Of a stretch of 64,000 nucleotides of DNA, positions 7,396-64,000 are shown piece by piece; within the stretch, counting starts at the first letter, position 1; each line of letters begins with the position of its first letter. The position numbers and the translations under genes were made by a program. Below the pieces are notes generated by a model. That model had not been told where the DNA came from. It was given only the letters and a program-made list of their open reading frames with translations, and did no database searches. The stretch comes from Synechococcus sp. M16CYN (GTDB lineage: Bacteria > Cyanobacteriota > Cyanobacteriia > PCC-6307 > Cyanobiaceae): positions 558,001-622,000 of the forward strand of contig NZ_AP029048.1 of NCBI RefSeq assembly GCF_040371545.1, in the 5' to 3' direction.

Positions 7396-7983
7396 TTAAG
7401 CCTCACACAGTGCTCCACTCAGAATTTTCAGCGAGGTTGGGTGTGTCATCAGCTGTTGATGCGTCCACACTGGTATCTCTTGGGCTGATCCCGTTGGAAG
7501 TACAGCACGCCATCCAGGACACACAATCAGATCCCAACGGCAGAAAAAGCTACGGCACCGCACAGATGATAACTGATTAGAAGTTTTGCGAAGGTCGAGG
7601 AGAAGTTGGCTGCCAATCTTCATATCAGCAGCACCTGGCAACAATAAGTGTGGAATGGGCAAGGCAGTGATGGTGCCCTGATGTGGACTACCAACACTGA
7701 AAAAATGGTGAGTCCGGCAAGCCCCCTCTAACTCTTGAAGCCAAATCCGACCTACGATTCCACCCATAGAAAACCCCAATAGATTCACCGTTGTCTTTGC
7801 ACCAAAGCGGTCGTGAATCTGCATATTTAACTGATGTGCTAACTGACGCAGGGGAACCTCCCCAAGACCGTGCCTGAGATGGGGTGCGAGAAGATCTTGC
7901 TGAGGTTGATCCAAATACTGAATCAATCGATGAAAGAGTCGTGGGTGGTCCCAAAAACCATGAATCAAGATGAGAGGAGTCAT
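7396..7983 (-). CDS. Alpha/beta-fold lipase-like hydrolase
   Basis: Likely lipase or esterase of the COG1075 type; substrate unknown. From the ATG at 7983 the protein has 195 residues. It begins [14 protein letters not shown], which carries the oxyanion HG motif, and has the nucleophile elbow GFSMGG near residue 70. A late THQQLMTHP segment can supply the catalytic His. The 5' end overlaps the folB stop in an ATGA arrangement, so it is the last gene of a proA-folB-lipase operon. A longer in-frame start at 8061 lies within folB and is not supported. Confidence 0.85.
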   Translation of the reverse strand: MTPLILIHGFWDHPRLFHRLIQYLDQPQQDLLAPHLRHGLGEVPLRQLAHQLNMQIHDRFGAKTTVNLLGFSMGGIVGRIWLQELEGACRTHHFFSVGSPHQGTITALPIPHLLLPGAADMKIGSQLLLDLRKTSNQLSSVRCRSFFCRWDLIVCPGWRAVLPTGSAQEIPVWTHQQLMTHPTSLKILSGALCEA

Positions 7984-8357
7984 AAAGTTGGTAGATAGCC
8001 GCCGTGTCTCTGTCGTTCTACGGCTACAAGCCCGCTGAAGCCAGGTACCGGTGCTGCGCATTTGGTCAAACGCAGCCCAACAGGGATAGGACCGTATAGA
8101 CGCTCAATCCGATTGAGAACTTGTTCACTGAAATGCTCAACAGTGAGACAGTTAATTTTTCGAGCCAAGCTCTGCAGCGTTCTAATCACCAGGCTGTAAT
8201 CCAGGCTGTTGTCTAGGTTGTCAGAAACAACTGCTGGGCCAAGATCTAGCTCGAAGCGTAGATCTAAACGGAACCACTGCCCGTCACGACGCTCACGTTC
8301 GAGTATGCCAACGTGCGCCCAAAGTCTTAAATCATTAATGTGAATTGAGTCAATCAG
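7980..8357 (-). CDS. folB: Dihydroneopterin aldolase, no canonical start codon
   Basis: Folate-pathway enzyme that converts dihydroneopterin to 6-hydroxymethyl-dihydropterin. The minus-strand frame encodes an intact protein of about 124 residues: [20 protein letters not shown], then DYSLVI and [11 protein letters not shown] (with the conserved Glu), ending in [20 protein letters not shown]. The body has no stop or frameshift. No ATG, GTG or TTG stands where the protein should begin: the codons there are CTG (8357-8355) and ATT (8354-8352), and CTG overlaps the proA stop as CTGA. The first GTG is at 8189, deep inside the fold. Either it uses a rare start through coupling with proA, or initiation is lost. 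Coordinates assume the CTG. Confidence 0.82.
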
Positions 8358-9661
8358 AGTGGTAGATCGTTATGGGTAAAGGAACGGTCTCCGTTAGCAT
8401 AGTCTGCCGCAACGTGGCCATCACCACGCAGCTGGTAGCGATACGTCACCAAACCTTCGAGTCCCACCGGTCCTCTTGGCGGTAAGGTTTGGGTACTGAT
8501 TCCAATTTCAGCGCCAAAACCATAACGAAAACCATCGGCAAATCGACTCGAACAGTTATGGTACACGCCTGCACTGTCCACTGTTGCAAAGAAGCGCTCC
8601 GCCACAATCAAATCTTCTGTCAAGATTACCTCGGTATGGCGGGAGCCATACCGACGAATGTGCTCGGTGGCTTCTGCAAAGTCACCTACAATTCGCACTG
8701 CTAGAGTCAGATCGAGGTACTCTGTATCCCAATCTTCTTCACTGGCGCTTTCTGATATGCCAAAAGCTTGACTTGCTGCATCTCCGCGAAGGGTGACGCC
8801 GGCGGCCTGAAAAGCCGGCACAGCATCCGATAAGAAAGCAGATGCAATATCGTGATGCACTAAAAGTGTTTCGATCGCATTGCAAGCAGCTGGGTACTGG
8901 GTTTTGCTATCCACTGCAACACGAATAGCTTTTTCTATATTCGCAGCTGCATCTACATACAGATGACAGATGCCATCTGCGTGACCAAGTATGGGAATGC
9001 GAGTGTTGTCTTGAATGAAGCGAATGAACTTGTTACTTCCCCGCGGAATAATGAGATCTACTAAACCATTAAGCCGGAGTAACGCCAAACTTTCTCGTCG
9101 CGTGGTGAGTAGGGTGAGGGTATCCGATGAGATTTCACTGGCGTCTAAGCCTGCTTTCAAAGCATTCATCACTACCTTGTTGGTGCAACGGGCCTCGTTG
9201 CCTCCTTTGAGTAGGGCGCCGTTACCAGAACGAATTGCCAACGAAGCTATTTGAACTACTGCATCGGGACGAGCTTCAAAAATTACGCCCACCACACCGA
9301 GAGGAACCGTAACGCGTTCTAATACAAGTCCGTCGTCGAGTTCCCTATGCAGTTGTCGACGACCGAGTGGATCGGGCAGCGTGACCACTTTTTGTATTCC
9401 ATCAATTGCTGAAGCAAGCTTCTTCTCATCCAGCTTTAGACGTGCCATAAAAGCCGGAGATAATCCTTCGGCAGCAGAACGGTCCAAATCCTCCTGATTG
9501 GCCGCCACAATCGATGCTGAACGTTCAGCTAGTGCATTGCCCATTAATTGCAACGCTCTGACTCGTTGGCCGTTATTAGTCTGTACTAGATCGACGGTGG
9601 CCAACCGGACGGCCCTAGCTCGTGCAAACAGCTCGATTGAAGGCTCTGGAACGTTGGTCAT
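8354..9661 (-). CDS. proA: Gamma-glutamyl phosphate reductase
   Basis: NADPH-dependent reduction of gamma-glutamyl phosphate, the second step of proline synthesis. The 435-residue protein spans the aldehyde-dehydrogenase-like fold. The active-site cysteine lies in [14 protein letters not shown] near residue 260, and [13 protein letters not shown] and [12 protein letters not shown] are conserved cofactor and core motifs. The N-terminus MTNVPEPS is a natural start. It heads the operon with folB and the lipase; the proA stop TGA overlaps the presumed folB start region. Confidence 0.96.
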
Positions 9662-28349: not shown

Positions 28350-28826
28350 CTAGATATAGGTTGAAAACCAATTAGGCACTTGAGAATATGTGGCAGCATT
28401 GCAACGGTTCTCCCGGGCCTCAACAGTCCAGCAGCAAGTACGTCCACTATCTTTTTGTTGAAGCAACGCATTGGCCCAGTCCCACACTAGTGTGGCGGTG
28501 GTTTCCATCCCTACATTCTCCATTACCCGCAGGTCTAAGGCTCCAAGTTCGTCTAAACGGCGCCATTCAGCGAGCAAAGGATCGTCCGCATTGACAAGAA
28601 ATGTGTGGTCAAATTGCTTTCTCAAACGTTTTTCAAATGGTCGGAGGCTAGAAAAATCCACCACGAATCCGTAAGGATCAAGCTCACGGGCACCAAACCA
28701 CAAAGTGAAACTACGGCTATAACCATGTACGAAGCGGCAGTGGCCCGGGTGGGACCACTGCCGATGACAACAGGAGTAACCTTCGAACGATTTACTACAA
28801 CTAAAGGGCGTAGGAAAAACGGACAC
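28350..28826 (-). CDS. queD: 6-pyruvoyl/6-carboxy-tetrahydropterin synthase family protein
   Basis: QueD/PTPS-like enzyme, acting on dihydroneopterin triphosphate in queuosine or pterin synthesis. The 158-residue protein starts with GTG and has a Cys/His-rich N-terminal half: SYCCHRQW-like sequence, HPGHCRFVHGYSRSF with candidate zinc histidines, then the conserved FDHTFLVNADDPL. VMENVGMETTATLVWDWA carries the downstream Glu. The usual HGHNY is replaced by VHGYSR, a variant I associate with a picocyanobacterial subfamily. The gene is divergent from hisIE, with starts about 70 bases apart. Whether it acts in queuosine or another pterin pathway is not decided by sequence. Confidence 0.72.
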   Translation of the reverse strand: MSVFPTPFSCSKSFEGYSCCHRQWSHPGHCRFVHGYSRSFTLWFGARELDPYGFVVDFSSLRPFEKRLRKQFDHTFLVNADDPLLAEWRRLDELGALDLRVMENVGMETTATLVWDWANALLQQKDSGRTCCWTVEARENRCNAATYSQVPNWFSTYI

Positions 28827-28898
28827 AATGCTGATGAAGAATGCGAAAGGCTGAATACTGAGAGAAGATCAGTGTACGTCTGTTAAGTCTGAGGCCCC

Positions 28899-53251: not shown

Positions 53252-53650
53252 ATGCCAAACCAAGAAGCTCAGGCCATCACTGCATCAGCGGCACCTAGAC
53301 CTATTGGGCCTTACAGCCAGGCCGTATTAGCTGACGGTTGGCTCTATTGCTCTGGTCAAATATCGCTTGAACCAAGCACAGGAAAAATGGTTGGCAACGG
53401 TGATGTAGGTGCCGAGACCCATCAGGTTTTTAAAAATCTTGTGGCTGTGTTAACTGAGGCAGGAGCATCTCTGAAACAAGTCGTACGGACGACAGTATTT
53501 CTAGTTGATTTAGCTGATTTTAGGATTGTGAACGAGATTTATGCGGATATGTTCAAAGTGGGAGTCAGTCCGGCCCGTGCTTGCGTTCAGGTCGCTGCCT
53601 TACCAAATGGGGCTAAAGTGGAGATTGATTGCGTCGCTTGGTTGGGATAA
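53252..53650 (+). CDS. ridA: RidA family enamine/imine deaminase
   Basis: Removes reactive 2-aminoacrylate and similar intermediates made by PLP enzymes. The 132-residue protein matches the family throughout: PRPIGPYSQAVLADGWLYCSGQI near the start, then TEAGASLKQVVRTTVFL and the active-site Arg and Glu in SPARACVQVAALPNGAKVEIDCVA. It starts 17 bases from futC on the other strand. It is the last gene before the AT-rich region. Confidence 0.95.
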   Translation: MPNQEAQAITASAAPRPIGPYSQAVLADGWLYCSGQISLEPSTGKMVGNGDVGAETHQVFKNLVAVLTEAGASLKQVVRTTVFLVDLADFRIVNEIYADMFKVGVSPARACVQVAALPNGAKVEIDCVAWLG

Positions 53651-54277
53651 ATTACTGAACACTTCATTTGGGGCCACCTATTAAAAGCAGGGAATTTAGA
53701 TTGCTTAACAATATGAAAACTCTCCTGTAAGCTCTATGAAAAGATAGAAATCTTGCGGCAACCACAATTTGAACTTAATGGTTAGGGAAAACCACACTAA
53801 ATATGCTCAAGAATGCTAGTAAGATTAATTTTCATTTTAGTATCACTTCAGAGTACAAATCCGAAGCAGACAATCTGATTATTAAGAGTTTTAGAATTCG
53901 TCAATATAAGTTGTTATTTTTTTTAATTTTTAGATCAATAATAAATAGCCTCAAGTATACATTATTTTATCATTATCAGACTCAAGTGATTTAAGCAAAC
54001 ATAAATATATGTTAAATGACATAAGCACCAAATCGTCAAGACTCACAAATATTGCTGATTTTTCATAAAATTTGGTTAGATTAAGATACGTAAAATTTTT
54101 ACAGTTAAAATCTTGTATTCAATTGTAGAATATTTATAGCCTGAAGTAGTGTTGCCAAAAATTAGTAAAGTATGCATAGTTTTATAACGAGAAAACAAGA
54201 AAAAGCTTAAGATAAATCTATTAAGAATAATAAGAGGTTAACTACCATATATATCTAGACTAAACTAGTAAAAAACA
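53651..54277. other. AT-rich gap after ridA
   Basis: About 630 bases, with base composition falling steeply. A 63-codon frame (53803-53994) has low-complexity content and is not supported. No RNA gene seen. Confidence 0.5.
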
Positions 54278-54505
54278 ATGTCAGATTCTACAAAGTTTGA
54301 TTCAGCCATTAGATTTGCGATTACTACAGGAAAGATACAATCAGCAAAGGATATTGATCTTGCAAAGAGTACAGATGGGGTTGACTCCGTCATTTTAAGA
54401 AATTTACAGGGAGTTACTGTGGCGAGTATTTCTAAAAGGGTTTTAAGAGAACGTGCTGAAGACGAGACTGTAGCCAAATTAAAAAGGTTAAAGCAGGTAG
54501 AATAA
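54278..54505 (+). CDS. Small protein of unknown function, 75 aa
   Basis: Begins MSDSTKFDSAIRFAITTGKI and continues KDIDLAKSTDGVDSVILRNL, ending in a charged helix (ERAEDETVAKLKRLKQVE). It has no membrane segment or signal. Its sequence is varied and ordered, in contrast to the low-complexity frames of the DNA around it, which supports it as a real gene. Family unknown to me. Confidence 0.6.
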   Translation: MSDSTKFDSAIRFAITTGKIQSAKDIDLAKSTDGVDSVILRNLQGVTVASISKRVLRERAEDETVAKLKRLKQVE

Positions 54506-55472
54506 TAAGATATTTATACTAAGAGTAATCGATTCAATACATATATTTTGCGAATCTTTAAAATACCAGAATCTTTAATACATAAAATAATGAGATTAGA
54601 TAACAAAACTAATTTGTATAGCTTAATTATATAATAAATTATGTATCATCTGGATTAGAAGAATTTGGTGTGTAAAAATTAATTTAGCCCTAAAATAAGT
54701 AGTAATATTTAGTACACAATAATAAGTTGTTTACTTAAGCTTATTAACTCATAGATGACCTTATAAAATCTAATAATATTCAGTTTATCTATAAGAAAAA
54801 TAATTTATCACAAGGACTATCGACAATTTAATATATTCTTTAAAGTTAAGAATAACTTGTGCTAATAAAAAATAAATATTTGATGGCTATATAATACTTT
54901 ATTGAAGTGATTAAAATTTAGTTTCTAATTATTAAATGAAATTTTTAAAAAAATATTTTTCGCTGCATTTAGGTATGAGTATTTGATTCCTCTAAATCTT
55001 TAGCTATCATAAATTACTTTTATAGCTGTTAATTTTTAATATCTTAAAACTAAAAGGCTAAATAAATTATGTCAACTAGAAAACTATAATATTCATGTTT
55101 TTTACAGTTTCCTTATTTAAATTATTACTATATATTTTTCTATACTCAAAAGTTAACTTTATATAATGTAACTATTAGATTAGTCAGAAAAAAGTCAGTA
55201 TGGTTATACTGATTAATATTTGATCTAAATAAAGTAATCACTAGCTAAGATGAAGCCTGAGTAACTAAAAAATTTATTAGTAGTAGCTTAATGTAACAGA
55301 AAGTAACATTTTTTAATTAAATACTTTTAAAGCATTATTATGCTATAATTCAAATATAATACATAAGAAAAAGAATAAAAATAATATTTACTAATAAACA
55401 AGCCTCGATTAATAGAAAGTATTAAACTTTTATTTAAAGATGGATACAGATAAAGAAGGGTCATATTTACAA
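54506..55472. other. AT-rich gap before selO
   Basis: About 970 bases with no supported gene, RNA or repeat. The composition matches the region beyond selO. Confidence 0.6.
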
Positions 55473-57173
55473 TTAGGATGAACAACTATAATGAGATATT
55501 CCACCAATACTAAATACTGATTCTGGCTTTAAAAGGTAATACTTATTTTCAATAGTTTTTGACTGTTCATCATAAGGATGACTAAGAACATTATGAATTT
55601 CTCTGATTAACTTATAGTCACCCTGAGTTGCTTGTTCATAGGCAGGAACAACGAGCCATTCTCTCCAAGTATATTTGGGATTAGTTTGTTTCATCTGTTG
55701 GCTAATTTCGTATATATTTCGTTTGGATGTAACGACTTTATACCAATCATTCAACCAAGATAGCCATTGATTTTCAAGTGTTTTAGGTAACGAGTCGTAA
55801 AAACTCTTTTTTAGTCCTGATAAATTGCGGGGTAAGTTTGATAACTCACGGAAAAAGATCGTGTAATCTACTCTAGAGTAACTTAAGAGCTGTAATAACC
55901 TTTGACAAAGCTGATGATCGTATCTAACTAAACCTAGCTTAGAGGTCCACACTGCTTGAATTTTTAATCGCATTGTTTGTTTAAATTGTTGACGACTCTG
56001 ATCAAATCTTTGTAGAGCATCAGCATCATCTAAAAGTAATATTCTTAAAGACTTCCAAAACATATTAAAATTGGCTTCTGCAGCAACAGGTTGATTAAAA
56101 AAGGAGAAATGTCTACCACCACTAATCCAAGGCTGAAAATTAGGATCAAAAAGCTCACAGAACCCGAATGGTCCATAGTCCAGTGTGAAGCCGCCTACAG
56201 TGCAATTGTCACTATTAAAGTTACCTTGGCAGAAACCAACACGTAACCAATTGGCAACTAAAGATGTAAGGCGATCTTGGAAAAGAAAAGATAATTCTAC
56301 CAATTGATTTGTAAAAGATAAGGTTAAATCAATACTGTTTTTATACTCTCTATCAATTAAATGCGATACAATCATGTTCAACTCTTCCATAGCTCTTGGA
56401 TGCGCACGGTTATAGGCCCGACGTGCAAATAGTTCTAACTGTCCAACGCGTAAGAAAGATGAAGCAACACGCGTTGTGATAGAAACGGGATTTTCAGTTA
56501 CGATGTCTGGTTCGTGTGATGTGGAGTGTTCTGAGTACCAAGGCCTCATTACCATTTGAGATCGGGAAACAAATAGAGTTAAGGATCGTGTTGTTGGAAT
56601 ACCAAGAGCGTACATAAACTCCTGAGCTAAGAATTCGCGCACGCTGGAGCGCAACACAGCACGTCCATCCCCACCGCGGCAATAAGGTGTTGGGCCGCTG
56701 CCCTTCAATTGCATTTCCCAACGCTTGCCATTTAATAAACCTTCAAAAACTGATATGGCACGACCATCACCATATCCATTGCCAGTGCCAAAAGGACATT
56801 GTCGAATATATTCGGTTCCATAAATTGAGAGGGCATAACCGGTTGCCCAGCCAAATGGACATTTAACATCGGCAGAAGATAGATCACCAGAAAACATTTT
56901 GATGAAATCTTGATCTTTCACTAAAGAATCGCTGAGACCAATTTCATCAAAGAATCTTTGACTATGAATTACGTAATCAGCATCTTTCAGCGGAGTAGGT
57001 TTGACAGGGACAAAATGACCAGAAAAAACCTGACGTGCACTATGATCATTACCATTCTGAGTAGAATCTGGATCAGCATTCAGATAGTTTATTAATGAAT
57101 AATCAGCACATTGCAGAAATTCATTAAAACTAGTAATGGAATGATTCAGAGAATTTTTAGATTGAGGTGACAT
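55473..57173 (-). CDS. selO: Protein adenylyltransferase SelO (YdiU/UPF0061)
   Basis: Pseudokinase-fold enzyme that transfers AMP to proteins, linked to redox stress. The 566-residue protein is complete. The nucleotide-binding core shows LKGSGPTPYCRGGDGRAVLR and FCQGNFNSDNCTVGGFTLDYGPFGF; the Asn-Ser-Asp-Asn and Leu-Asp-Tyr-Gly segments supply the metal and catalytic residues. The C-terminus ends SYSCSS, matching the conserved redox Cys near the end of bacterial SelO. It is isolated: 970 empty bases on one side and more than 3 kb on the other. Its codon use is AT-biased compared with genes before 53.6 kb. Confidence 0.95.
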   Translation of the reverse strand: MSPQSKNSLNHSITSFNEFLQCADYSLINYLNADPDSTQNGNDHSARQVFSGHFVPVKPTPLKDADYVIHSQRFFDEIGLSDSLVKDQDFIKMFSGDLSSADVKCPFGWATGYALSIYGTEYIRQCPFGTGNGYGDGRAISVFEGLLNGKRWEMQLKGSGPTPYCRGGDGRAVLRSSVREFLAQEFMYALGIPTTRSLTLFVSRSQMVMRPWYSEHSTSHEPDIVTENPVSITTRVASSFLRVGQLELFARRAYNRAHPRAMEELNMIVSHLIDREYKNSIDLTLSFTNQLVELSFLFQDRLTSLVANWLRVGFCQGNFNSDNCTVGGFTLDYGPFGFCELFDPNFQPWISGGRHFSFFNQPVAAEANFNMFWKSLRILLLDDADALQRFDQSRQQFKQTMRLKIQAVWTSKLGLVRYDHQLCQRLLQLLSYSRVDYTIFFRELSNLPRNLSGLKKSFYDSLPKTLENQWLSWLNDWYKVVTSKRNIYEISQQMKQTNPKYTWREWLVVPAYEQATQGDYKLIREIHNVLSHPYDEQSKTIENKYYLLKPESVFSIGGISHYSCSS

Positions 57174-58692
57174 ACTTGGCGACTATGATTAGCAAGATTT
57201 AATTACATTATATATTATACAATAAATCCTTTTACAATCAAGATGGCCAAAGTACTAAGTAAGCTGTTAATATATAAAGTTAGATTATTCACTAATCTTT
57301 AGTTAATATTAATATTTTATAAGTACTTATAAACTTTACTAAAAACTTAAAAGAATTAGGCATTTATATATAGATAAAAAAGTAAACTTTAAAACCAATA
57401 GTATGTCTTTATGTTAGTCAAAGTTCAAGTACACAACAATTTTATCTTGTAATATATTAATTAATTGGTTTATATAAATGTTATATAAATAACTAATAAG
57501 AATATAAATGTATTGACTATAATAAAAGTTTCTACGTATATCTATTCCTTAACTTATACGAGTATAATAAAAGCCCACAGAAGACTATAAAAAATAACAT
57601 TACTATAATCTAGATTTAGATTATTAATAAAATTAAAAGATTAAAATAAAGTAATTAAATTGATAATAAATTAATTGTTAATCATATAAAAATTTTTTAT
57701 TCTTAGTCAAGTAAAATATATTTAATTATTTAGCGACTAACAAAATCTTTAGTTACCTAAATTATAAGAATTGCTTAATAATAATTGATAATTAAATGTA
57801 AATTCAAATTCTAAGTTAAAAAACATGCTGACTATATTGTGATAAATAACTTAATAATTGAGTTTTAATTATGGTTAACAACTATTTAAGTAATAAAATA
57901 TTTACTTTTGATATTCGGAATTTGACTTATTGAGTTTATTTAATATTTTTAATTTTTAATTCTTGAGAAATTTTAAATTTATTGGTTTAAAAAATACAAC
58001 GTTTACAACAACAACAAAGTATATTTACTATCCTGGTATTTTTTAATAAAATATTTATAATGTTAATCTAGTCATTAATATTAAGAAAACTAATATTAAA
58101 ATAATGAGGGACAAAAGCTTATTAAATAGACTATAAATTTATAAATCGAAAACATTAATTTACCAACATATTAGTTATCTTATGCGAAGTTATGATACTA
58201 GGAAGAATAAAATTACTAAGCTCAAAAAATAAAAAATATTTTATTGATATTGATTGTAAGTTGGGTAATTAAAAAGCTATTAATTTTTTTGCCTTAAAAT
58301 AAAGGTAATTATTATAAACTAACTTTTATGTAAATATTTTATTAAGAAAAAGACTTAAATGGGTAAGATATACAGCTTTAAATCTAAAGATTAGCACAAT
58401 TCCACTATTTTTAGCTGTTGCATTAATTAAAATAATGATTAAAATTAGAATAAGAAAATAAACTATTACACTAGTTATTTTGTGCAATAAATATCTGTTA
58501 AGTTGGTTTTATAGAAAATCACTGCAAATTTGTTGCTTTATATATGAAAATAAATAAGATGTATTTACTTTTAGCTCTAAATATTTCTCTTAATAGCTTA
58601 GATAACTATTAGAATTGACATTAAAATTTTATTAGATTAAACAAGCTAAAACTCGCGTATAGTATTTTATATTACTTAGGAAGATAATCTAA

Positions 58693-58731
58693 TTTAAAAT
58701 AATTTAATTTTATGAATTAAATTATTTTAAA
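58693..58731. repeat. 17-bp perfect AT-only inverted repeat
   Basis: TTTAAAATAATTTAATT pairs exactly with 58715-58731 across the five-base spacer TTATG. The arm length and spacer are the same as those of the tamB hairpin, though the sequence differs. Confidence 0.95.
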
Positions 58732-59686
58732 CATAAACAGAGGTAAGTAGTAAATATTTATTGGTTTCTAAAAATTTTTATAGTCTGTTTTAGCTAGTGC
58801 TTAGTTTAAAAAATGGTTTTTATATCTGTCAAGCTTTTATTTATTAGCTTATCAGTTTAATAATCTTGAAGTGATGGCTCATTCTGGTTAAGCCTAAACC
58901 TTTTAAATTAGATAAAAATATATTAATAAATATTTAGCTTTGTGTTCTAGTTTAACAGATATATTTTATAAGAATAATTTAAATAATTTATATATTATTC
59001 TCACAATATCTTATTATATTTGAGATATCTATTAAGCTTTATAATCTGAATATTATTACTAAGATAATAGCAGTTGCTAATATTATTTTAAACTAGATTT
59101 ATGTTTGCATTAAGACTTATAATTCAGGACAAAGTTTTAATTTTATTAGTTTCTTTAAAGCTTTAAGCAGTATTCTTATTACATAAAGTTAATTACCGCA
59201 CAATAAAACCTAAGTAATACCCTAAAATCCAGATTATTTGCAATTGTAATACTCATATAAAGAGATACTTTCAGAAGAAAGGTTATCATATCTTAAAAAA
59301 TCGTAAACAAATGCTATAGATTACGATATCTCAAATTTGCACTTTTCCTATTATTATAAAAATTTTTATTTTTAATAGTGAATCTATTTTCTAGAAATAA
59401 TCAAATTACAAATATGAATACAAAGTAAAAACTTAGTTAAAGAATTATTTCTATGACACGCTTAAGCTAATAAAATCTGATTATTATATTTAATAATGTA
59501 ACTTATTTTATTAAAGATTAAGAATTAATGCTGTAAATAAGGAACTTAGAATTTACAAAACAAATATTTAGTTAGCAGATCAATAAATAAAATTTCGACA
59601 ATTAGAGCTTATATAATGTCCGTAATCATTTAGTAATTTTTGATTATGAGAAGAGTATTTACAAAAAATCAAATAAATAATTAGTG

Positions 59687-59720
59687 CTAGTTAATTAATA
59701 TTATAAGCTTAATTAACTAG
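59687..59720. repeat. 12-bp perfect inverted repeat
   Basis: CTAGTTAATTAA pairs exactly with 59709-59720 across a 10-base spacer. It is AT-rich and could be chance in such DNA. Confidence 0.9.
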
Positions 59721-60126
59721 TTTGCGCTGAATATAACGTTAAAGTATTAACGAAATTATAGAATTTGCTAAACTCTTAATTAATAAAATATACTCAATTT
59801 ATGATAATATTGAGAATATAATCCTAAATTTAAATATTATTGTTTTTATGATTTGATATTTAAAGTTAGTTAATAAGCTAAGTTAATGTCACACTAATTA
59901 AAAGTCAAGTTAAATTAAATAAAAATTAGTTGTTTAAATACTTTATGCTATTGCATATATACTTCAGAGTATAATTTGATTAAACTTATTAGTATAGTAA
60001 GAATCAAGTTCTGTTATCGTAGATGTAACTTAATTTTGAAAATTAAATTAAGCGGAATCAATATAAAATGTCAGTTCATTATACTGATCATTTATCTTAT
60101 ATAAAGTAGCATTGTCAATTAAAAAT

Positions 60127-60153
60127 TAAACAAAATTTATTTAATTTTGTTTA
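60127..60153. repeat. 11-bp perfect inverted repeat
   Basis: TAAACAAAATT pairs exactly with 60143-60153 across the spacer TATTT. Confidence 0.9.
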
Positions 60154-60458
60154 CTAATATCATATATACTATCAAAGCTAAAAATTTTTGAGATTAGATA
60201 ATCAGTTTAGAGAAACTAATTGCACTACATAAATTTAAAATCCTTAGGCATTATTATAGGAATAACATATCTACTTCACTTTCGGTTAACGGATAATTTT
60301 GTATATAAAACAACATTTAAAAATTCTGAACAAGAAAAGATACTTATAAATATAAATACTTAATTATTTAATTATAGATCATCTTGAACATGGATTAGTA
60401 ACAAACTATATTTATTTAAATATACAACGATGGCAATATCAATACAGTCTTAAAATTT

Positions 60459-60635
60459 ATGGATTCTTTAATGAAAAATTCTTTTTTTAAATACAGACAA
60501 CAAGAAAAGGAAGCAATTGCGCGTTGGTTTAATGAGTTTCAGCCAATTGATATATCAATAATTGGAAATATGAAGATTGCACGAGGAATACCAATAAATA
60601 TGGATAAAGATGAAAAATATAGGACTAAACTTTAA
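60459..60635 (+). CDS. Possible 58-residue protein inside the AT-rich stretch
   Basis: ATG 60459 opens a frame reading MDSLMKNSFFKYRQQEKEAI, then ARWFNEFQPIDISIIGNMKI, and finishing RGIPINMDKDEKYRTKL with TAA. It is the only frame in nearly 7 kb with varied, balanced composition, including Trp, Arg, Gln and Gly codons. No Shine-Dalgarno is seen. A hairpin (TAAACTTT, GAT, AAAGTTTA) lies 58 bases after the stop. I recognise no family. Confidence 0.45.
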   Translation: MDSLMKNSFFKYRQQEKEAIARWFNEFQPIDISIIGNMKIARGIPINMDKDEKYRTKL

Positions 60636-63600
60636 TATTTTGTTCTTGCTAAAAGCCTAAAATTATATCAAAATCTAAGTATAGTAGCATGTTAAACTTT
60701 GATAAAGTTTATGTATCTTATCGTTAATTTATTCCTATAGATAGCTATTATAATCTCGACTTTTCTTATTTTGGCTCTTTACTATTATTAGCTCTTAATT
60801 TTAGTTTGCTATTTTAATGATCCAAATTATTGTAGATAGTACATTCACAATAATTTGCTATTGTTTGACTAAGATACTACTCGGTAATACATTATTTTTA
60901 CAAGTCTGTTAAATTCATTATAATTTTTTAATCACGAAATCATTTTTATATTTCTTAAATTATCGTATAACGAGCTATACTTAACTTTGCTGTAATTTAA
61001 CGTCCTTGTATCTATAGCAGTAGAATTGCTAGATTTAATAAAGTAGTCATTAAATTAAGACTTAATATTTATTCTGTTGATTTAGTGCCACATATATTAA
61101 TAACTTGACTAGCTATCAGATAATATTTGACAATTAGATATTATCTTATTAATTCTAATTAGATACTAAGTGCATATATTTGATTTACCTAATTTGATGA
61201 TTAATTAAGATTAATAATAATATATTTATTAAGTAAAAGTCTCATAAATAATTTTTAAACAAAACTTTTCAACAAAATTATTGTTATTAATGCTCTTATT
61301 GGCATGCAATTAGTTGCCATTACTTACATCATAAAGTTGATAGCGTATAAATTAATTCAGACTTAATTATGTAAGATACTAAAGTCAGTATTCAAAATTA
61401 ATTGAGCTAACTTTTTCATAAAAAGTTTAAAGATAAGAGATTAAAATTTTAACCAATAAATAGTTTTAAAGACAATTTTTTTCAAGCAGCAGTTAGCCGA
61501 AAAGTTCGGATAAAAAGCAAAAATGGTTTGAAGCAGCCTTAATATAAAAGTTCTAAGAACAATTTTTATCTTCTTAAGAAAATTATATAGATAGCTTTTA
61601 AAGTTTTTTATCAGCTACTTAAATTAAATGTGTTTAAACTATGCAAAATGTAATGCTACAATTAGAGTTTTTATCTCTTAGCAACATATCAAGTACAGTT
61701 TGAGTTTAGTTAACTTTAAATTCTAGAATTTGTAAAATAGTAATAAATTAAAGCTTAAGCTCGAGACTAATTTATTGACTTTTCTATCAATTTAACCGTT
61801 TAAACGATTTTTGAAAAATCAAATTGATTACGATAATTATGAGGCAAGTTTTTGCATGAGTTCTTAATTCTTGCTAGTTTAATAGTGTAATTTTAATGAT
61901 AAGAACAAATCGTATTCACTAAATTTAATTCAATATCAATAAGATAATTAGTTATTAAAATGCTAGTAACGAAATTGTTCAGTTGTAGCAAACCACGAAA
62001 CAGTTTGCTGTTACTGATCTTAAACCTTAGCTCAAAAAAGTGACTAAGCTTGATGATGCTACTATCATTGTTATTCACACAAGTCTACACGACATAATTA
62101 GACTTTTGACCTATGAGTACATATAAATATAATTATTTATAAAGATAAAGTCAAATAGCGTTTTTGTTTAATTATACTTTTCATATCCGTGTTAATTTTA
62201 TAAATGTTATAGATAAAAACTAAGCTCTATCTAGATTTCTCGAATAAGCTTATTTAGATAATTTTCATCTCGTTTATTTTTTGTAAAAAAAATTAATTAT
62301 AAATAAATTAAAAAAGCTCAATTTGAACATTTGTATTTATAATAATATTTTTAAAGCTAGAAAATTTTTAAAGTAATGCTACGCACTAACAAGTATATGA
62401 TTACGTAGCAAAAACCTATTTTAGGTATATTAATTAATTGTATAATATTTTTATTGTCTTAGGTCTAAATTATGCAGATATAAAATGTATTAAGTTTATT
62501 TATTTTGTCAATATTTTTTGCAACCTGCTTTTGATAATTACTAGTATAAATAAAATAGTTCAGTTCAAGTCGTATATTGCTAATGCTTAATAATAAATAC
62601 TAGATTCTGTTTTAAACAATTTATGATATGTATCGATGATAGTTTTAATAAATACAATTTTACCTATACGATGCTACCTATTTAATCTAATAGGATGCAT
62701 TAAAATTCTTCAATCACTTAAAAAATAAAGCTCCCCCATGCATTTTACCAAAACTGTCTCAAATTTTCTTATTAAGATTTTTTAGGCAGTGAATAATAAT
62801 TAACTAATTATTTCGCCTTTTTGTTCTTTGAATTCTTAGAGCAATTAAATTAAATTGTTTGGAAAGTAATATGGTATCTTTTAAGTTAATTTTAAAAGTC
62901 TTATAAAAGACTGAATAACAATAGTCAAAATTTTAATAAATTTATTAGAAATATGTAAATAATTAAACAGTGTTAACTGTAAATACTGATTGGCTTTTTA
63001 TGATAATTTCATTGAAATCTATATTTATGATATAGTTTATTTCAATAACTTTAACAAATATTTTATTTAGCTTATTGATGATACCGTACTTACGGTCTTG
63101 TAATTTAACATTCCAAATTTTTTCTTTCCTAGGATATATTTAATCTTTTAAGTACAATCTAACAATATTAAATCTAAATTATCTGATTATTAATAATATA
63201 ACTTGTATAAAACTAATAAATTCATAATTTTATGTGATCGCTTTACTCTAAATTATTCAATTCGTATTAAATTAATAAGATTAATTTTCTAGTCTATTTA
63301 ATATTTATAATTTTTAATTTAGCCTACTAATAAACTAATATAAATTCTTTATATTAACAGATATAATTTCTACATATTCTTAGAGATTAGATTTAAAATA
63401 AGTTCAATAATTAAAGCTTTCCCTATATATTTTACAATTATTCTTGTAATTGTTCAGTAAAAAGTTACCTTATAGCCTTGCTACTCTTTAGAGCAAAAAT
63501 ACTAAAATTTAGGCATAATGCGCTAAAAATAATTTGCTACAGTATTTTAAACAGTTAAAATAAATAAAAAATTTTAATAAAGGGGAAAAACTGTTTTTTA

Positions 63601-63973
63601 GCAACAAACCGTATAAGTTTATATAAAAAACTAAGTTAGCAAACCTTTGAAATCTGTAACTAACTTATTTTAAAAATAAGAAACTTAATTATCTAGTCAG
63701 TTGCTTTTAAAAGCTATATATCATATTCTTAAACAATTATATATTTTAATTAATATCTTTAGAAGCACAATTCAATTTCAGACTTTCTTGGTAACCCGTT
63801 AATCTTATAATGTACATATTTTGTATTAGTTTCTGCTAAAGAATCGTTAAGTTTATTTATGATAAAAACTAAATTTATTTCAACTAATCTCATAAATATA
63901 TAATATTGATTAAGTAGCTTAATATAAATCTCAATACAATAACTCTATAATTCATCAGCCCATAGCACCTAAG
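60636..63973. other. Second AT-rich stretch without genes
   Basis: About 3.3 kb. Slightly richer spots occur near 61490 (a CCGAA/TTCGG hairpin and a short frame reading AVSRKVRIKSKNGLKQP without a start) and near 61975, but no gene is supported. A stem TGCTACG/CGTAGCA lies at about 62378-62412. No RNA gene recognised. Confidence 0.65.
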
Positions 63974-64000
63974 ATGACCAAAATTATTTTCGCCTTTTCT
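63974..64000 (+). CDS. Possible start of a gene cut by the window edge
   Basis: The last bases return to mixed composition and contain an ATG opening MTKIIFAFS before the window ends. Too short to identify. Confidence 0.3.

Follow-up and report, generated by a model that had tools for sequence, protein, structure and literature searches.

Bacterial genes that naturally begin with AUU include infC of E. coli, in which this codon serves negative feedback by IF3, and pcnB. Although AUU is thus known as a natural start, IF3 discriminates against it (PMC4611024), and switches to such codons are exceedingly rare, with 1 of 61,358 reconstructed AUG starts having switched to AUU and 2 of 61,358 to CUG (PMC5622118). 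Where genes overlap, TGATG and ATGA are described as the standard arrangement for termination–reinitiation, with the restart taking place on AUG, GUG or UUG, and a Shine–Dalgarno motif is reported for only about 40% of the overlapping pairs in cyanobacteria (PMC6728339). In E. coli, translation was reported to begin at non-canonical codons located after a stop codon when ribosome recycling factor is lost, and reinitiation without a Shine–Dalgarno sequence to drop almost threefold under excess IF3 (PMC2268962). The Streptomyces regulator sigR, in turn, carries a non-canonical GTC start that lowers its expression and is repressed by IF3; restart at an overlap is not mentioned in the beginning of the abstract of that report (PMC5472188).

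Here, we analysed the proA–folB junction within a 64,000-nucleotide stretch of the Synechococcus sp. M16CYN genome (the window), where folB appears to have exchanged its ATG for ATT. Judged from the sequence, AUU is the most plausible start of this gene, and on that rests its likeness to infC as another natural bacterial gene with an AUU start under IF3 discrimination. Unlike in infC, no feedback loop of this sort is known for folB; moreover, its examined relatives have standard starts, so the ATT would be a derived change in one lineage. The junction has the same geometry as the TGATG and ATGA pairs, with one shared base, but the restart would occur on AUU, and it differs from sigR, as far as the beginning of that abstract goes, in the overlap itself. 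We regard the ATT start as ordinary in kind, yet as a clean test case. Among the titles and abstract beginnings of the open-licence literature, we found no paper on the folB start in cyanobacteria or on coupling at UGAUU, and the string UGAUU is absent from the open-licence papers checked for it.

Table 1. Features of the proA–folB junction and its surroundings (window positions; ATT is counted as codon 1 of folB)
Feature	Position	Strand	Evidence or remark
proA (glutamate-5-semialdehyde dehydrogenase)	8354..9661	-	NF001221, 521 bits (cut-off 289); TGA stop 8356-8354
folB, from ancestral start position (ATT) to stop	7980..8354	-	PF02152, 81.5 bits (cut-off 31.8; profile positions 1-111 of 113); start aligned with the ATG of relatives
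ATT codon at the site of the relatives' ATG	8352..8354	-	A common to the proA TGA (TGATT)
CTG in frame with folB that overlaps the proA stop (CTGA); second-choice start candidate	8355..8357	-	
In-frame TAA, four codons before the CTG, closing the folB frame	8370..8372	-	sequence
GTG at codon 56, the earliest standard start in frame with folB	8187..8189	-	sequence
Alpha/beta hydrolase, gene 3' of folB, from an ATG with ATGA overlap (7980-7983)	7396..7983	-	PF00561, 40.4 bits for a longer frame, to 8061, also present

On the minus strand, proA ends as AAC GAT CTA CCA CTC TGA, and the same region reads TAA CGA TCT ACC ACT CTG ATT GAC TCA ATT CAC ATT in the folB frame. With the stop codon at 7982-7980, the open part of that frame spans 7980-8369. 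Three observations of the earlier note on this DNA hold: the proA stop and the folB head meet as CTGA, folB lacks a normal start, and its body is uninterrupted, with no stop in 124 codons and the PF02152 (FolB) match well over its cut-off. The product is predicted to be FolB, dihydroneopterin aldolase, with a full-length domain. It scores 60.6 bits with the domain model TIGR00526, above the cut-off of 45.05, and 63.3 bits with the equivalog model TIGR00525, under that model's own cut-off of 72.15. In a phmmer alignment with the S. aureus aldolase 1DHN, one Tyr, one Glu and one Lys are identical, and these we take to be the catalytic residues of the S. aureus enzyme.

ATG, GTG and TTG are absent from the folB frame until the internal GTG, and starting there would lose nearly half of the enzyme, while initiation farther upstream is ruled out by the in-frame TAA. 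No standard start is compatible with full-length FolB. Near-cognate codons within the first 15 of folB are CTG (-1) and ATT at 0, +3 and +5. Upstream of the junction, at most three of the six bases of GGAGGT are matched. The mRNA around the junction folds at -5.9 kcal/mol, compared with -12.4 to -34.6 in 27 relatives, but this weaker fold carries no inference because the folded stretch is also poorer in G+C (0.39 versus 0.50–0.71 in the same relatives).

Our search covered 118 genomes, the organism's own included, and yielded a FolB match in 107. The DNA was examined for all 61 family relatives with a match, of which one (G004, locus L172) ends at a contig edge, leaving 60 usable. In 58 of these, a standard start falls within the interval from -16 to +1 codons relative to the ATT of the window, and the other two (L060 and L065) have theirs beyond its upstream edge, at -31 and -24; none of the 60, in all of which the N-terminal region is held, is without a standard folB start. 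A further 26 loci, several from the same genomes and three of them non-cyanobacterial, each have a standard start in the -16 to +1 interval. A stop within the FolB match of L026 proved to be where that gene naturally ends.

The direction of the change can be read from the 27 loci of the same genus (L003–L029), in which the stop/start overlap is conserved as TGATG in 18 cases and as NTGA with GTG (five) or TTG (three) in eight; the remaining locus, L012, has CTGA with no ATG directly after the stop and an ATG three codons later. Directly ahead of the ATG, 15 of the 18 TGATG loci carry CTG and the other three TTG. In a tree of 12 genomes built from three joined genes, the window groups beside L003–L005, and these nearest relatives read TTG ATG GAT GCC ATC (L003) and CTG ATG GAT GCC ATC (L004 and L005) where the window reads CTG ATT GAC TCA ATT. 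Since CTG or TTG followed by ATG is found in 18 of the 27 relatives, ATG to ATT is the change and the CTG is older; the folB start changed at 8354-8352, the differing base being 8352 of the plus strand. Comparison of the junction in relatives, recommended in the earlier note, therefore upholds the loss of the start and corrects its proposed cause: a single A-to-C change at 8357, turning ATGA into CTGA, does not fit, because the base there is already C (15) or T (3) in the TGATG relatives, and it is the last base of the ATG that differs instead. Separately, Synechococcus UW140 and UW105 (L040 and L041) read TTG AAG where others have CTG ATG, so that in their lineage the ATG at the folB start codon is also lost, but with a standard TTG beside it.

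FolB is generally regarded as essential for folate synthesis. A second folB elsewhere, named at the outset as an observation that would undo the case, was sought in the organism's own genome (98.5% complete by the tool's estimate), where only the one copy was found, and no relatives of folB turned up among viral contigs. The pathway around it is retained: folE, folK and folP have uninterrupted frames, each with a standard start close to the N-terminus; infC is likewise open, its frame beginning with ATG. PTPS-III enzymes, which carry an ExxHGH motif, can bypass FolB (PMC5041015), but we reject this route here, as the motif is absent from all three PTPS domains found in the genome (CSFAPGHGH, CARPHGHGH and CRFVHGY). 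The last of these belongs to a PTPS-family protein (PF01242) at window positions 28350-28868 of the minus strand, in which the last His of the PTPS-I motif CxxxHGH is replaced by Tyr.

Taken from one genome sequence, these observations lead us to hold with moderate confidence that folB is a working gene whose start has changed from ATG to ATT and which is translated by coupled reinitiation at AUU, with a possible contribution of CUG. Ribosomes would finish proA at the overlapping TGA and, without leaving the mRNA, step back one base to initiate anew on AUU with the initiator tRNA, UGAUU having replaced UGAUG. The product of such a restart would be M-DSIHIND..., made at a reduced yield that would nevertheless suffice for folate synthesis, and the adjoining CUG might add some M-IDSIHIND.... 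Restart on AUU, with CUG in second place, is favoured by three considerations: the overlap keeps its geometry, and the restart codon differs in nothing but its third base; AUU is a natural start; and non-canonical starts after a stop are documented in E. coli. The discrimination of IF3 against AUU counts against it, as do the rarity of AUG-to-AUU switches, the drop in reinitiation without a Shine–Dalgarno sequence under excess IF3, and the match to GGAGGT here of three bases at most. More narrowly, we tentatively put forward that restart on AUU right after the proA stop is all that sustains folB, a metabolic gene for which we found no substitute.

An unlikely alternative is that the start is being lost, folB being either a strong hypomorph or a pseudogene of very recent origin, with the need for folate covered by leaky initiation, the host or neighbours in its chamber. 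The own genome comprises 1,957,399 bases in two contigs (1,940,073 and 17,326), and it is probably that of CregCyn, the symbiont of Citharistes regius, for which a 1.94 Mbp chromosome, a circular sequence of roughly 17 kbp and a close relationship to the clade IV strains CC9902 and BL107 are described (PMC11150560). The protein number of CregCyn is described as one quarter to one third lower than that of its close free-living relatives (PMC11150560), and as the genome appears reduced, a recent loss of folB is plausible and counts against restart on AUU. The same source, however, indicates that CregCyn appears to keep relative metabolic independence; its main text contains neither folate nor pseudogen- nor start codon. 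Also at odds with ongoing loss is the retention of folE, folK and folP, together with the open frame of folB itself and its low omega.

In a branch test, omega of folB was 0.112 on the window branch and 0.098 elsewhere, a non-significant difference, and omega = 1 on the window branch was rejected (2 delta lnL of 12.9, a cost of 6.5 log units), the likelihood profile allowing values of about 0.03–0.28. The downstream hydrolase gave 0.122 on the window branch and 0.119 on the rest. These estimates come from 12 of the 28 sequences and a purpose-written codon model run for at most 60 iterations without a convergence check, at synonymous sites near saturation. Within these limits, purifying selection acts on the folB body along the window branch, and the body shows none of the marks of a pseudogene (stops, frameshifts, relaxed selection). 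A folB that died long ago is thereby excluded. A recent loss of its start is plausibly compatible with the test, as up to about a fifth of the window branch may be neutral (up to roughly 0.23 is allowed, by interpolation).

Nor does the rest of the genome look like one that is shedding its start codons. Across 49 orthologue pairs between the window and the syntenic region of G006, folB is the one gene with its first standard start far inside (59 codons), the next-highest offset, 19 codons, being common to the reference. Extended to 311 pairs over 464 kb, a quarter of the genome, the comparison again singles out folB alone as having a first start more than 40 codons inside where that of the reference lies within 20. 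At a threshold of 15 codons, 28 of the 311 rows are flagged for this genome and 22 for the reference. Apart from folB, eight rows among the 28 show a reference start no later than 13 codons in (365085, 449345, 456055, 676920, 689076, 693847, 790024 and 810015); going by their N-termini, with three inspected in longer alignments, we take them for alignments that probably enter non-coding or shadow frames. Since folB stands alone among the 311 pairs, we see no sign that start codons have become laxer across this quarter of the genome, and the idea of a genome-wide loosening finds no support.

Because start switches of this kind are so rare, a sequence error must be kept in mind. We consider it quite unlikely that the ATT is a base error or a minority variant in the consensus and that the real genome has a standard start, even though the finding is based on a single consensus from one strain. 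If the genome is that of CregCyn, the template was whole-genome-amplified and the Unicycler hybrid assembly was run with -no_pilon; on the other hand, each library had 33 to 43 million paired-end Illumina reads (PMC11150560). Moreover, the difference is a substitution and not an indel, and the proA and folB frames around the site are clean.

It is very unlikely, in our estimation, that folB is live but starts on the CUG of the CTGA overlap in place of AUU. GTG or TTG occupies the same NTGA position in the eight same-genus relatives mentioned above, five of which offer no further ATG, GTG or TTG within the three codons that follow, and CUG retains the 3' G common to canonical starts. The presence of CTG is nevertheless uninformative on its use, as CTG directly precedes ATG in 15 of the 27 relatives, and L012, which alone among them has CTGA without an ATG immediately behind the stop, has its ATG three codons on. 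In addition, switches from AUG to CUG are themselves very rare, as the two cases in PMC5622118 indicate. Finally, a ProA–FolB fusion made by a -1 frameshift or by read-through from proA is barely credible: relative to proA, folB does occupy the -1 frame, with four open codons ahead of the CTG, but the only usable stretch, CGATCTACCACTCTGA, has by eye no slippery run, and shifts farther upstream are excluded by the in-frame TAA.

Switches from AUG to AUU have almost never been seen in nature, which makes the folB case a rare one if real. Should restart on AUU be true, the short distance between termination and reinitiation would rescue a codon nearly rejected as a start in de novo initiation, and overlapping genes could lose their AUG without dying. 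In agreement with the earlier note, the junction lends itself well to testing whether coupled initiation can use CTG or ATT. With TGATG in the nearest relatives and TGATT here, it forms a matched natural pair by which the extent to which coupling relaxes the choice of start codon could be gauged. There is also a practical side, as annotation that allows only ATG, GTG and TTG would truncate or drop folB.

Apart from the junction, the window contains two AT-rich tracts, at 54101-55800 and 56901-64000, the second of which continues to contig position 622800. No ATG-initiated open reading frame longer than 91 aa lies inside them; likewise, no tandem repeats were found from window position 53500 on, no Rfam match at gathering scores in the AT-rich region, and no phage DNA similar to window positions 57300-63900. 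The two tracts, with 25.5% and 22.3% G+C versus 47.4% in the 464 kb sample, flank and slightly overlap the SelO gene (55473-57173, minus strand), and a third AT-rich tract, of 3.8 kb, is present at contig positions 803401-807200.
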